64,000 bases of DNA from Williamsia sp. CHRR-6 (GTDB taxonomy: Bacteria > Actinomycetota > Actinomycetes > Mycobacteriales > Mycobacteriaceae), in NCBI RefSeq assembly GCF_018474015.1, contig NZ_JAHCSG010000001.1, forward strand, positions 124,001 through 188,000, read 5' to 3'. Under the pieces are notes generated by a model, which did not search any database, was not told where the DNA came from, and worked only from the letters and a program-made list of their open reading frames with translations. The position numbers and the translations under genes are program-made. Of this stretch, positions 6,777 to 14,430 are shown one piece after another (position 1 is the stretch's first letter; the number at the start of each line of letters is the position of its first letter).

Positions 6777-7930
6777 GGTGCTGCCGTCCGATCCCGGTAG
6801 ACGCGGGCCAGTTCGAGGCCCGCCTGCGCCACCGCGGCCGCGGCGTCACGGTGGCCCACCGACGCTGCGGCCAGCGACATCTGTGACAGGTGCTCGGCAT
6901 CGGACAACAGCGTGGGAATGGTGTCGGCGACCCACTGCGCGGTGAGTTCGGAGTCGTCCAGCAGGATCCCGCCGCCCGCCGAGACCACCGGCACTGCGTT
7001 GAGCCGCTGCTCGCCGTTCCCGTGCGGAAGCGGGACGTACACCGCCGGCAACCCGGTCGCCGAGATCTCGGCCACCGTCATCGCTCCCGAGCGACAGATG
7101 ACCAGATCGGCTGCGGCGTAGGCGAGATCCATCCGCTTGAGGTAGCCCACCGCCACATAGGGCGGAGCCCCGGCAGGCGAGTCGACCACGATGGAGTTCT
7201 TCGGACCGTGGGCGTGCAGCACCCCGATCCCGGCTGCGCCAAGGGCTCCGGCGGCATCGGCCACCGCGGTGTTGATGGTCCGGGCACCCTGAGATCCACC
7301 GAACGCCAACAGCGTCGGGGCATCGGGATCGAGTCCGAAGTAGTGGCGTGCCTGAGCTCGCAGCGCACCGCGGTCGAGTCCGGTCAACGATCCGCGGACC
7401 GGGATGCCGACCACCGTGGCCTCGATCCCCGATCCGTCCACTGCGGCGAGCACCGTGTCGGCCATGCGCGCACCGATCCGATTGGCCACTCCCGCACTCG
7501 CATTGGCCTCGTGAATCACCACCGGGATGCGGGCGCCGGGCGCCAAGCGCAACCGCGCGGCCAGATAGGCGGGCAACGCGACATACCCTCCGAAGCCGAT
7601 GACCACGTCGGCTCCCACCTCGGCGAGCACCGCTCGCGTGGCGCGTACCGACCGCAGCAGCCGGAAGGGCACGCTGAACAGATCACGATTGACCTTGCGC
7701 GGCAACGGCACCGGCGGGATCATCGCCAGCCGGTACCCGCGTTCAGGGACCAGCGTGCGTTCGAGTCCGCGCTCGGTGCCCAGCGCGGTGATCCGTGCGT
7801 CGGGTTCCAGCAGACCCACCGCGTCGGCCACCGCGAGCGCAGGCTCGATGTGACCGGCCGTGCCACCACCGGCCACCACCACCGACAGCGGTCCACGTGC
7901 CGAGGGGTGCGCAGATCGACGTGTCCTCAT
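6773..7930 (-). CDS. murG: UDP-GlcNAc:undecaprenyl-PP-MurNAc-pentapeptide transferase MurG
   Basis: GT28 glycosyltransferase that converts lipid I to lipid II on the inner membrane face. I use the ATG at 7930 ([10 protein letters not shown]), which overlaps the ftsW stop by four bases, giving 385 aa; the open frame upstream is ftsW sequence in another phase. Motifs: [20 protein letters not shown] near residue 17, [44 protein letters not shown], and the C-terminal [19 protein letters not shown] plus [13 protein letters not shown] donor site. Confidence 0.97.
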
Positions 7931-9552
7931 CGTCTCCCCCACCGTCTCGATGAGCCAGGACCGCGTTCGGCGGCCATCGACTCGGCTGCCCCAGGCCGAC
8001 CGGAGGCAGAGGCGACCCGGCGAACCGGGGTCTGACCCGACGACGACCGGCCTCGGGATGGCTGCGATCGACCGGTGCCTGCTCTGCTGGAGCCGGCGGT
8101 GCCCAAGCGCCCAGACCCGGCGGTGCCAGAACGCCCGGACCCGGCGGTGCCCGAACGCCCGGACCCGGCGGTGCCCGAGCGCCGCGATCCAGCGATGCCC
8201 GGGTTCGAGCGTGACCCGGCGGCGGTCTGCCCCAGCTCGCCGGCGGCACGGGTTCGACGAGTTCGCCACAGCGCGGTCCGATCCGGCTGGTAGGCCCGCG
8301 GGGTCGGAAGCCGCAGCAGGCGGCCGAGGCGACTCTCGCCACCGGCCGACAGAGCGGCCACCGCCTCGGGTTCGTGGCGGGCCGCATTGGCCATCAGGCC
8401 CAACATCACCAGCACCGTGAACGTGGAGGTTCCGCCGGCCGACAGCAGCGGCAACTGGATACCGGTGACCGGGAGTAGTCCGATCACGTAACCGATGTTG
8501 ATCAGGGCCTGCGCGCTGATCAACACTGTGATCGTCGCGGTGAGCAGCCGGATGAACGGGTCGGTGGCGCGAACCGCGATCCGCAGACCGACATACGCCA
8601 GGGCCGAGAACAGCCCGATCACCAGCAGGCCCCCGAGCAGGCCGAGTTCCTCGCCGATGATCGCGAAGATGAAGTCGTTGTGCGCGTTGGGCAGATAGTT
8701 CCACTTGGCCCGGCTCTGGCCGAGGCCCTGCCCGAAGAACCCCCCGTTGGCCAGCGCGTATCGGGCCTGTCGCGCCTGATATCCGGCCCCCAGCGGATCG
8801 TCGATGTTGCCGAGGAAACTCTGCACCCGCTCAGACCGGTAACCCTCGACCATCGCCAACACGATCGCGATGGACGCACCGGCGATGACGAAGCCGGCGA
8901 ACACCCGCAGCTGCAGACCGGCAAACCACAGTTGGGTACCCACGATGATCGCGATGGTGATGGTGGTGCTCAGGTTGGGCTCGAGGATGATCAGGGCGCA
9001 GATCAGGACGGCTACCGGAACCAGCGGCACCAGCAGCTCGCGTAGCGTGGCGCGGTCGCGGATGCGTGAGGCCAGCAGGTGCGAACCCCACAGGCACAGA
9101 GCCACTTTCACCAGCTCCGAGGGCTGCACCGAGAACCCGGCCACCACGAACCACCGCCGCGCGCCACCGCTGAGGTTGCCCAGGCCCGGCACCAAGACCA
9201 GCATCAGCATCACCGTGGTGATCACCAGTGCGGGTGCAGCGATGCGGCGCATGAAGCGCACCGACAGACGTAGCGAGAAATAAAACAGGACGCTGCCGAA
9301 GACCGCGAACACCACCTGCTGGGTGAACAGCCCATACGCCGAACCGTTCTTGGAGTATCCCTCCACCGACGAGGCCGAGAGCACCATGATCAGACCGAAG
9401 ACGGTCAACGCCACCGTCAGCCCGACCACCAGATGAAACGATGCCAAGGGCCGCCGCAGCATCGCACCCAGCGCAGATCGGACCGAAGCGCTCGATCCGG
9501 TCGGCTCGCGACGTTGCGCGTCGACGAGAGTCGAACCGATGTCGCGGGTCAT
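7927..9552 (-). CDS. ftsW: Lipid II polymerase FtsW (SEDS) with repetitive C-terminal tail
   Basis: The SEDS-family peptidoglycan glycosyltransferase that works with FtsI at the septum. The 541-aa protein has about ten membrane segments between residues 40 and 385 and SEDS motifs such as [25 protein letters not shown]-like [19 protein letters not shown] and [13 protein letters not shown]. The last ~130 residues are cytoplasmic, basic and low in complexity, with an 8-residue repeat (RSGTAGSG) at about four copies. It starts at an ATG overlapping the murD stop by four bases. Confidence 0.96.
8093..8188. repeat. 24-base in-frame tandem repeat in the ftsW tail
   Basis: Four consecutive 24-base units, each beginning CCGGCGGTGCC on the plus strand, at 8093-8116, 8117-8140, 8141-8164 and 8165-8188, with a further decayed unit after. 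On the coding strand each encodes one RSGTAGSG-like octapeptide of the FtsW cytoplasmic tail. The units are nearly identical, so copy number may vary between strains. Confidence 0.9.
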
Positions 9553-11117: not shown

Positions 11118-11230
11118 CTCAACCGCCTACCGCACGACCCACTCAACCGCCTGCGGCTCCACCCACTCAACCGCCTGCGGCTCCACCCACTCAACCGCCT
11201 GCGGCTCCACCCACTCAACCGCCTGCGGCT
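11118..11230. repeat. 24-base tandem repeat spanning the mraY stop codon and the mraY-murD spacer
   Basis: Unit CTCAACCGCCTGCGGCTCCA plus CCCA (24 bases). Copies: 11118-11141 (degenerate), 11142-11165, 11166-11189, 11190-11213 (identical) and a 17-base partial at 11214-11230. The partial copy is the 3' end of mraY including its TGA, so the array looks like tandem duplication of that gene end. The whole mraY-murD spacer is made of it, including the bases just before the murD ATG, where the degenerate copy offers AGGCGG as the only ribosome-site-like sequence. Confidence 0.95.
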
Positions 11231-12309
11231 AGGAACTCGCTGTAGAACAGCGACAGCCCCAGCGCACACGAGATCGCGGTGAGCAACCAGAACCGGATGA
11301 TCACCGTGGTCTCAGCCCAGCCCGCGAGCTCGAAATGATGATGGAACGGGGCCATGCGGAACACCCGCCGACCCGTCGTCCGGAAGAACGCGATCTGAAT
11401 CACCACCGACACCATCTCGGCGACGAACAACGCGCCGATCACCACCATCAGCAGTTCGGTTCGGGTGGTGATCGAGAGTCCGGCGACCAGGCCACCGAGG
11501 GCCAGAGATCCGGTGTCACCCATGAAGATTTTCGCCGGGGCCGCGTTCCACCACAAAAACCCCAGGCACGCTCCGCCGGCCGCCACCGCGATCAACGCCA
11601 GATCCAGCGGATCGCGTACGTGATAGCAGCCCGAACTCGAGTTGCCGCCGCCGTCCGCCCCGCCGGCGCACGCATTGCGGTACTGCCAAAACGTCACCAG
11701 CACATAGGAACCAAGCACCATCGCCATCGACCCGGCCGCCAGCCCGTCGAGGCCGTCGGTGAAGTTCACCGCGTTGGACCACGCCGCCACGACCAACCAG
11801 CAGAAGACGACGAAAGCCACTGAACCCAAGGACACCGCATCGATGTCGCGGACGTAGGAGAGTTTGTCGCTGGCCGGGCTGTCGCCGTTGGTGTTGCGGA
11901 ACTGCAGCGCCAGGATGCCGAACAACACCGCCGCGGTGAACTGCCCGACCGACTTCGCCGTCTTGGTCAGTCCCAGGTTGCGCTGCTTGCGGATCTTGAT
12001 GAAGTCGTCGAGGAATCCGACCGCACCCAGCGCGGTGGCCAGACCGAGCACCAGCATCCCCGACGCCGACGGACCCACTCCCCCGTTGACCAGTCCGGCC
12101 AGATGAGTGCCCCAGTACCCCGCCCACAGTGCGGCGATGATGGCGACCCCACCCATCGACGGGGTGCCACGTTTGGTCTGATGCCACTGCGGGCCTTCGA
12201 CCCGGATCTCCTGCCCGAATCCCTGCCGCGAGAACACCTTGATCAGCACCGGCGTGAGCAGGATCGACACGGCCAGAGCCACCGCGCCTGCGATGAGAAT
12301 CTGGGTCAC
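11215..12309 (-). CDS. mraY: Phospho-N-acetylmuramoyl-pentapeptide-transferase MraY
   Basis: Polytopic enzyme that moves phospho-MurNAc-pentapeptide onto undecaprenyl phosphate to make lipid I. The 364-aa sequence has about ten membrane helices and the catalytic motifs [16 protein letters not shown]-like [11 protein letters not shown] (Asp pair), [25 protein letters not shown] and the [13 protein letters not shown] histidine loop. GTG start at 12309 with GGAGGG about eight bases upstream. The last five codons and stop belong to the tandem repeat array. Confidence 0.97.
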
Positions 12310-12349: not shown

Positions 12350-12856
12350 TCATCCCGACGTCGCACCGAAGGTGACTGTGTATCGGTCGCTATCCAACAG
12401 GCTCTGCGCCACCAGCGACAAATCGTCGCGGCCGGTCCCCCCACCCCCAGCGAGCAGCACCACGTCGCCGTCGGCGAGGTCCTCGAGCAGCATCTGCACC
12501 GCAGCCGCAGGATCATCGACCAGGCGGGCCTCGTCGCCCCACGAGCCCTCCATCACCGCCCCTTGATGCAGGGCGCGCACCACGCGGGTGGTACCGACGC
12601 TCACGACGTAGTCGACCGCCAGACGCACCAGGAAACGACCCACTCGGTCGTGCTCCACGGCCCGGGCGTTCTCCGCAGCGCGCACGGCGTCACCGTCATC
12701 GGGCTCACCGCCCGGGCCCGCCAGCTCGCCGAGAACCGCCCAGCACCGCCGCCCCACTCCATCGCGACTGGTCTCCACCAGGTCACGCAGCACCGTACGC
12801 ACGGCGTCGGTGTCCATCGGCCCGGATCGATCGATGACGGTTATCTGTCTGCTCAC
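12350..12856 (-). CDS. MurF-derived Mur ligase C-terminal domain protein (N-terminal and ATPase domains absent)
   Basis: A 168-aa protein at the position of murF. It matches only the C-terminal domain of MurF: VLGELA (41-46), EHDRVGR (68-74) and EGSWGDEA (103-110) are recognisable. The UDP-substrate domain and the GKTTTK-type P-loop domain are absent, and the preceding bases are murE. The DAYNANP motif normally before the helix is replaced by DRSGPMDTD, and the usual VLVKAS segment reads VVLLAGGGG. The GTG start overlaps the murE stop by four bases (GTGA), so it should be translated. Third-position GC is high, as in a maintained gene. It cannot be a MurF ligase alone; a full MurF must be encoded elsewhere, or the step is done differently. 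Confidence 0.85.
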   Translation of the reverse strand: MSRQITVIDRSGPMDTDAVRTVLRDLVETSRDGVGRRCWAVLGELAGPGGEPDDGDAVRAAENARAVEHDRVGRFLVRLAVDYVVSVGTTRVVRALHQGAVMEGSWGDEARLVDDPAAAVQMLLEDLADGDVVLLAGGGGTGRDDLSLVAQSLLDSDRYTVTFGATSG

Positions 12857-14430
12857 TGAGAACTCCCCTGCTCCCGCGCGGTCAACGCCGCGGCCAGCAC
12901 GATGCGGTCGTCGAAGGGTGTGATGGTGCCGGCCACTTCCTGACCGGTCTCGTGTCCTTTGCCTGCGACCACGACGACGTCGCCGGTCCGTGCCCACCGG
13001 ACCGCGTACTCGATGGCCTGTGCCCGATCGCCGATCTCGGCGATCGGTTCTGCTGCGCGGGGACGCTCGTCGAGCGGGACCGCTTGCGCCCCAGCCAGAA
13101 CTGCGGCCCGGATGTCGGCGGGTGGCTCGTCGCGCGGATTGTCGTCGGTGATGACCACCAGGTCGGCGCCACGCGCGGCTGCCTCGCCCATGAGGGGGCG
13201 CTTGCCGGTGTCGCGATTCCCGCCGGCTCCCACCACGACAGCCACCCGCCCCGGTGTGCTTGCGCGCAGAGTGGCCAGGACGGCACCCACCGCTGCCGGC
13301 TTGTGGGCATAGTCCACCACGGCGAGGAACGACTGGCCCCGATCGACCCGTTCCAATCGTCCCGGCACCGACACCCCCGCGATTCCTGTAATCGCCTGTG
13401 CCACATCAATACCCGCACACGTCACCACCGCGACCGCCAGCAGCGCATTGGCCACGTTGTAGCGCCCGGGGATCGCCACCTCCATCGTCTGAGCAGGCTT
13501 GTTCGGTCCGACCACCTGCACCCGCTGGACCCCGGCGGGAGTGGTCACCGCGTCCCCGGCCTGCCAATCTGCCGGGGTGGCAGTGGTTCCCGCCACGGTG
13601 ACCACTCCCGGCCCGACGATGCTCGCCAGTGCGCGCCCCCACTCGTCGTCCACGCAAACCACCGCCTGACGCGCGCGCATTGGCGAATCCGGCTCGAACA
13701 GCCGAGCTTTCGCTGCGAAGTAGGCGTCCATGGTGTGGTGGAAGTCCAGGTGATCCTGCGACAGGTTGGTGAACGCACCGATCGCGAAGTCGGCCCCGGC
13801 CACCCTTCCGAGAGACAACGCGTGGCTGGAGACCTCCATGACAACGGTGTCCACACCCTGCTCCAGCATCGCTGCGAGCAGCCCCTGCAACACCGGCGCT
13901 TCGGGCGTCGTGAGGGAGGTGCGTTGGGCGACGCCGTCGATGCGCGTCCCGACCGTCCCGATGAGGCCGACGGTGCGGCCGGCCGACCGCAGCGCGGATT
14001 CGACGAGGTAACTCGTCGTGGTCTTGCCCGACGTTCCCGTGATGCCGATGAGTTGCAGATGCTGTGACGGATTTCCGTACACCCGCGCACTGAACGTCCC
14101 GAGCACCGCGCGCGGATCCGGGTGGATCACGATCGGGACGTCGAGCCCCGCCATCAGATCGGCCCCGTGCGGGTCGGTCAGCACCGCGCATGCACCCGAG
14201 GTGACCGCATCGGCGGCAAACGTCGCCCCGTGCACGCGGGAGCCGGGTAGTGCAGCGAACACGTCACCGGCGTGGGCATCCTGGGCGCGAAGGGTGATGC
14301 CGGTCGCGACGACCGTCGGGTCACCACGCACCGACGCCCCGATCAGGTCGGCGAGAGCACCGAGCGGGTTCGACACCGGGTGCACCGGACGCAGCGGATC
14401 TGGCTGCGGGGTGTTGCCGCCGTCGACCAT
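12853..14430 (-). CDS. murE: UDP-MurNAc-L-Ala-D-Glu--2,6-diaminopimelate ligase MurE
   Basis: Adds meso-diaminopimelate to the stem peptide. The 525-aa protein carries the Mur P-loop GITGTSGKTTTSYL at about 129-142, the carbamylated-lysine region DAYFAAKARLF, and DDNPRDE at 429-435, the signature that selects meso-DAP over lysine. The C-terminus has VVVVAGKGHETGQE. The ATG has a very strong ribosome site (AAGGAGGTGA). It is complete, so the truncation of the next gene does not affect it. Confidence 0.97.
   Translation of the reverse strand: MVDGGNTPQPDPLRPVHPVSNPLGALADLIGASVRGDPTVVATGITLRAQDAHAGDVFAALPGSRVHGATFAADAVTSGACAVLTDPHGADLMAGLDVPIVIHPDPRAVLGTFSARVYGNPSQHLQLIGITGTSGKTTTSYLVESALRSAGRTVGLIGTVGTRIDGVAQRTSLTTPEAPVLQGLLAAMLEQGVDTVVMEVSSHALSLGRVAGADFAIGAFTNLSQDHLDFHHTMDAYFAAKARLFEPDSPMRARQAVVCVDDEWGRALASIVGPGVVTVAGTTATPADWQAGDAVTTPAGVQRVQVVGPNKPAQTMEVAIPGRYNVANALLAVAVVTCAGIDVAQAITGIAGVSVPGRLERVDRGQSFLAVVDYAHKPAAVGAVLATLRASTPGRVAVVVGAGGNRDTGKRPLMGEAAARGADLVVITDDNPRDEPPADIRAAVLAGAQAVPLDERPRAAEPIAEIGDRAQAIEYAVRWARTGDVVVVAGKGHETGQEVAGTITPFDDRIVLAAALTAREQGSSQ

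Follow-up and report, generated by a model that had tools for sequence, protein, structure and literature searches.

A MurF C-terminal domain in the dcw cluster of Williamsia and Gordonia, putatively retained as a non-catalytic protein after displacement of the native ligase

The 64,000-nucleotide stretch of the Williamsia sp. CHRR-6 genome analyzed here (the window) carries, in place of a full-length murF, a short gene for the C-terminal domain (CTD) of MurF. The account that we favor, at a probability of roughly 0.6, is that the CTD of a displaced MurF has been kept as a putative non-catalytic docking or regulatory protein. A divergent ddl-murF pair, originating in a different class of the phylum, would have entered an ancestor of Williamsia and Gordonia and would now supply the full-length MurF and usually the sole clear Ddl. 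The native murF between murE and mraY would then have been cut to its CTD, with decay of the universal ligase residues. We regard the foreign acquisition and the reduction of the native gene, taken jointly, as nearly certain. On the evidence of selection rather than of expression, the CTD is very probably still translated, either from its own gene beside murE or, since a single fusion event, within MurE. On balance, it probably retains, in general terms, a second, non-catalytic docking or regulatory function that the CTD of Mycobacteriales MurF would have had before. The remnant would then serve the cytoplasmic synthesis of peptidoglycan precursors as a pseudoenzyme adaptor, with a putative docking or regulatory surface centered on QGAVMEGSWGxE, which is absent from the acquired MurF.

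The remnant (Table 1) is the sole ORF between murE and mraY, and its frame is open. A preliminary description of this DNA had taken it for a murF cut to its CTD between intact neighbors, and profile searches bear this out. The 168-aa protein scores 30.5 bits with Mur_ligase_C (PF02875; gathering cut-off 28.4), and TIGR01143 (murF) aligns to it over positions 313-406 of 418 only, giving 22.8 bits against the 288.6 set for a MurF ligase. Among four other separate remnants scanned with PF02875, a score of 28.5 passes and scores of 28.1 and 25.6 lie just below the cut-off; the scan of remnant L060 returned no listed match. Alignment to MurF, as suggested earlier, gave 48% identity (74/153 aligned columns) with the CTD of Mycobacteroides MurF (L163). 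A BLASTP comparison of the window ORF with the second MurF of the same genome yielded no meaningful match, and a profile of the remnants, when searched against PDB sequences, returned three designed repeat proteins and a weak MurE match (E 0.83), none of them convincing. The coupling to murE through a GTGA overlap, with the first four bases of the open frame in the murE stop, and the alteration of the DAYNANP and VLVKAS sites were likewise read correctly in the preliminary description.

Table 1. Features of the remnant locus in the window.
Feature	Position	Strand	Basis or remark
MurF remnant, stand-alone MurF CTD, 168 aa, GTG start	12350..12856	-	Pfam and TIGR01143 matches; orthologue in 49/49 genomes with distal MurF
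murE, intact; remnant fused to murE in 8/49 clade genomes	12853..14430	-	
mraY, next gene downstream of remnant	11215..12309	-	
GTGA, remnant start overlapping murE stop	12853..12856	-	4-nt overlap
Lost NDAYNANPxS site, residues 9-18, DRSGPMDTDA here	12803..12832	-	Alignment and motif counts
Lost VLVKxS site, residues 133-138, VLLAGG here	12443..12460	-	Alignment and motif counts
Conserved segment, residues 94-110 (RALHQGAVMEGSWGDEA), where the remnant varies least	12527..12577	-	

A full MurF is encoded on another contig of the genome (G000:C3:547607-548941) and scores 379.9 bits with TIGR01143, over the cut-off. This is the complete copy elsewhere that one of the two explanations offered earlier had called for, and distal MurFs of this kind carry the P-loop, NANP and VKGS in 30/30 cases read. 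The other explanation, an unusually organized D-Ala-D-Ala step without full MurF, is ruled out by a MurF over the TIGR01143 cut-off in 8/8 genomes of the window's genus and a full MurF in all 49 genomes of the clade described below. The only Ddl over the family cut-off in the window genome is the neighbor of the distal murF. This ddl adjoins the distal murF on the opposite strand in 30/30 clade loci read, and its product was the best Ddl match in 11/11 clade genomes checked and the sole one over the cut-off in 10 of them. The eleventh, a genome of the Williamsia muralis group (G017), has two Ddls above this cut-off, the additional one at G017:C26:617231-618235 with 271.6 bits.

We then drew 301 genomes from the window's GTDB family. 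A distal-type MurF, defined by at least 62% identity to the distal copy, occurs in 49 of them; the next value below is 48% among the matches listed, and the others all stay at or below 53%. These 49 genomes form a clade of Williamsia and Gordonia lineages in six genus groups (by genus code: g1 8, g7 1, g9 29, g11 9, g13 1, g17 1). The group g1 includes Williamsia maris, herbipolensis, deligens and serinedens, the species of the window's own GTDB genus group, for which the preliminary description had named Gordonia; g11 includes W. muralis, g17 W. sterculiae, g7 Gordonia jinhuaensis, and g9 G. aichiensis and G. desulfuricans. The locus was inspected in relatives, Gordonia among them, as that description had proposed: in all 49 genomes with a distal MurF the dcw locus is CTD-only, as a separate ORF in 41 and as a C-terminal extension of MurE in 8. 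A strain oddity is therefore ruled out, and so is an assembly error, given the same arrangement in independent assemblies. The 4-nt overlap with murE is found in 40 of the 41 unfused remnants, the exception being G. jinhuaensis. Since most full-length murF genes of relatives show the same overlap, the coupling of the remnant to murE is inherited.

Outside the clade, a full murF lies between murE and mraY in 27/27 family genomes whose loci were fetched by coordinates, and 244 of the 252 non-clade genomes have a MurF match at 1e-30. Seven of the remaining eight are less than 90% complete; the eighth, G252, has no such explanation. One g22 genome has, in addition to a complete dcw murF and beside it, a second full-length MurF-like gene (L250, G220:C42, 7018-8427), whose long branch in the tree adjoins the dcw MurFs. 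A search with the remnant profile fetched 80 named loci, 27 of which are remnants in records labelled Williamsia or Gordonia, with one labelled Kitasatospora; the starts of the L100 and L220 remnants were settled by hand. The Kitasatospora record (L185, NZ_JNYV01000005.1), titled Kitasatospora arboriphila, carries a Williamsia muralis-type dcw locus and appears to correspond to G108:C5 in the window's family, so its title looks wrong. Another record, titled Acidobacteriaceae bacterium BOG_194 (L183, CAJCHX010000862.1), has a Mycobacteriales-type murE-murF-mraY order and appears to correspond to G206:C862 in the same family.

The distal pair is foreign to the family. In a phylum sample of 396 genomes, the ten best non-family matches to the distal MurF all come from other classes, with 52-63% identity and 406-502 bits (G670, G430, G388, G577 and G663 are among the best), and the best match within the family outside the clade reached 287 bits. 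The MurF tree joins the distal copies to 15 of 17 outside rows (SH-aLRT 99) and sets the 27 family dcw MurFs apart in a group of their own (98). The clade Ddl, in its tree, falls with G670 (97) among other-class rows and away from four native family Ddls, which share 42-45% identity with the Ddl of the window genome. Both trees were built on reduced sets (61/75 MurF rows and 34/48 Ddl rows), with about half of the clade rows dropped. The divergent ddl-murF pair itself is present in 30/30 clade loci and in 13 of 17 other-class loci; two of the other four lie beside mraY, and two are without ddl in the fetched stretch. The pair of G670 (L125, L270) lies inside or beside the Williamsia and Gordonia copies. 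This genome, in which another, distant ddl is also present, may be close to the donor or be a later recipient. The working copy thus groups with a distant lineage in both trees and in the phylum search, and the ddl-murF gene order is common to that source lineage. The position of the distal murF and ddl among other-class genes with the same divergent pair argues that a foreign pair displaced the native ligase, a conclusion that we regard as shown by the trees and the gene order.

The remnants have lost the residues common to ligases and kept others. YNA, NANP and VK[AG]S are absent from all 49, the window ORF included. NANP and VK[AG]S are each found in 0/49 remnants, 30/30 distal MurFs and 26/27 dcw MurFs. 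On the other hand, QG[AT][VI][MQ]EGSWGxE is present in 49/49 remnants. EGSW occurs in none of the 30 acquired distal MurFs and in 20 of 27 native full-length MurFs, the exceptions being five in g3, one in g5 and one in g24 (EGSF). The counts for full-length proteins come from the 27 genomes fetched by coordinates, the scan patterns behind the 50 named full-length MurFs having included the EGSW motif. The dcw MurFs without EGSW in g3 and g5 are L223, L224, L225, L227, L258 and L259; both groups are also without NamH. Motif counts cover all 49 remnants and the residue alignment 40 (the eight fusions and L100 left out), and in these 40 the invariant positions are D70, G73, R74, V77, R78, L79, G88, R91, Q98, G99, M102-G107, E109 and D131.

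In the alignment the EGSW segment is gapped in the acquired MurF and in 15/17 other-class MurFs. A reading of the motif as a plain insertion had to be corrected, as E. coli MurF (PDB 1gg4) has a stretch at this place with different residues; the aligned region is best described as a segment with a lineage-specific motif. Loss of the universal ligase residues together with retention of this motif suggests that a second function was already present in the ancestral MurF. Seven of the 27 native MurFs are without EGSW, and therefore the function, if any, would not be universal in the family.

In 17 pairs of related genomes dN/dS of the remnant, computed on codons of the alignable core only, ranges from 0.02 to 0.30. 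Over 17 pairs each, mean pN/pS was 0.20 for the remnant, 0.165 for murE and 0.05 for mraY; over 11 pairs each, it was 0.145 for the distal murF and 0.12 for its ddl. The remnant thus evolves like a functional protein, under purifying selection slightly weaker than that on murE. That it is a decaying pseudogene or an assembly artefact, which the loss of the ligase residues and of two domains might suggest, can practically be dismissed: the frame is open and conserved in 49/49 genomes of six genus groups, and the dN/dS values are low. The earlier view that the fragment is kept as a gene holds, and a search for stops or relaxed selection, named there as refuting observations, found neither, with the gap recurring in independent assemblies. 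A role of the DNA or RNA itself, in which the stretch is kept as an internal promoter, an mRNA structure or for the spacing of mraY and the protein is a by-product, would suit the location within a long operon-like cluster. We consider it very improbable, however, because synonymous sites vary (dS 0.11-0.93 over the 17 pairs) while amino acids are kept, and because the reading frame is intact even in the MurE fusions.

A CTD tree places the 40 remnants that have a called start together (support 96), as one truncation would predict; the alignment behind it is short and covers residues 19-135 of the CTD (112 columns, 99 of 114 rows). In eight Gordonia-group genomes (g9) murE reads through into the CTD, and the two fusion proteins read fully have 708 and 724 aa; L154 and L186, which run into contig ends, are not counted as fusions. 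A murE-mraY tree of all 49 genomes is consistent with a single fusion event (support 99). The two Gordonia-group fusions scanned match the bifunctional MurE-MurF model NF008896 in the MurE part only, with 451.5 and 458.2 bits against 1023.

What the retained CTD might do is a more tentative matter. Protein interaction within the Mur complex, as proposed in the preliminary description, could be its specific role, and the MurE-CTD fusion in Gordonia favors such a role. In a two-hybrid study of the M. tuberculosis Mur synthetases, none of them interacted with another one (PMC3605390), which speaks against the simplest form of a Mur-complex interaction. The same study reports that DdlA and the NamH homologue bound MurF only among the Mur synthetases, and that each of the four Mur synthetases interacted with PknA, PknB and division proteins (PMC3605390). 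A docking function in general also has to be weighed against the facts that the fusion is one event, that the murE coupling is inherited and that the remnant evolves somewhat faster than murE and mraY.

The remnant could be a MurE subunit, a special case of the docking account, that binds MurE and modulates its activity, its stability or the hand-over of its product. Adjacent genes and a natural fusion that has stayed intact in eight Gordonia-group genomes since one event fit this, but the adjacency is inherited, the fusion happened once, and Mur synthetases bound no other Mur synthetase in the M. tuberculosis study (PMC3605390); we think this role unlikely, though not negligible.

Somewhat less likely still is that the CTD motif binds the muramic acid N-hydroxylase NamH, so that the remnant would hold NamH at the precursor pathway after loss of the old MurF. 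This idea draws on the binding of NamH to MurF only among the Mur synthetases, as reported in the M. tuberculosis study (PMC3605390), and on gene content. NamH, identified with a reference (L273:64-1656) that carries the Rv3818-like Pfam domain, is present in 49/49 clade genomes and in 234/301 family genomes. A GAxxEGSWG DNA pattern occurs in 221 of the 234 family genomes with NamH and in 22 of the 67 without (20 recorded as such, 47 inferred from their absence from the match table), a comparison that ignores kinship; the reversed pattern, used as a control, gave chance matches in a small share of genomes. Among non-clade loops read, EGSWGxE was counted by eye in 25/25 with NamH and in 7/22 without. 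Against the NamH reading, the association ignores shared descent, and the DNA pattern is a proxy that misses three clade genomes which do carry EGSWG. Moreover, g4 is without NamH in 23/23 genomes and has the pattern in 19, and G049, G111 and G119 also have the pattern without NamH. Strict dependence of the motif on NamH is ruled out by these genomes.

A role as helper in trans, in which the remnant would assist the distal MurF or Ddl to fold or to act, would keep it in the same pathway and recall the MurF-DdlA contact of the M. tuberculosis study (PMC3605390). However, the distal MurF has its own CTD and both NANP and VKGS in 30/30 cases, it works without such a remnant in the lineage to which it belongs, and ddl was replaced too, which makes this role quite improbable. 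No single named partner of the remnant is thus better than unlikely; MurE and NamH are leads. A possible but rather doubtful elaboration of the docking account is that the CTD of Mycobacteriales MurF has an unrecognized docking site, QGAVMEGSWGxE, through which the soluble precursor pathway is linked with N-glycolylation by NamH or with the MurE step, with the remnant as a stand-alone adaptor split from the ligase by gene displacement.

Compared with the native dcw MurF of Mycobacteriales (TIGR01143, CTD PF02875), the remnant shares the place between murE and mraY, the CTD and the EGSWGxE segment, but it is without the N-terminal and ATPase domains, and NANP and VK[AG]S are gone in 49/49. In xenologous gene displacement a foreign gene takes over and the native copy decays; here, unlike in the usual course, the native copy would stay as one domain under purifying selection. 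Pseudoenzymes have lost catalytic motifs and retained sequence constraint, and the remnant differs from them in being a single domain after truncation. Among the matches listed in the open-licence literature, we found no pseudoenzyme derived from a Mur ligase and, for Gordonia or Williamsia, neither a MurF CTD standing alone nor a displaced murF. Bordetella pertussis has a fusion in which MurE is followed by MurF in one polypeptide (PMC6420597), as MurE is by MurF sequence in the eight Gordonia-group fusions. The Bordetella MurF part, however, is complete and active (PMC6420597), whereas the Gordonia-group fusions carry only a CTD without ligase motifs.

An old MurF tail kept as a small protein, and sometimes fused to MurE, suggests a second job. 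Structural or regulatory roles of Mur ligases are hard to test because these enzymes are essential. With ligase activity and the remaining function in separate genes, the putative second function could be removed while wall synthesis goes on. If the docking-site elaboration above is true, the remnant would be an adaptor of its own derived from a Mur ligase, and gene displacement would have provided a natural experiment in separation of function. Since Nocardia, Rhodococcus and mycobacteria have the motif in their working MurF, lessons may apply to them as well. The locus also offers a clear case of an essential step taken over by a foreign ddl-murF pair.

Two tandem arrays lie near the locus in the window. 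One, at 11118-11230 between murD and mraY, has a 24-base unit in 4.7 copies with 95% matches and overlaps the 3' end of the mraY ORF. The second, at 8089-8201, also has a 24-base unit in 4.7 copies and falls in the C-terminal repeat region of an ftsW-like ORF (7927-9552).
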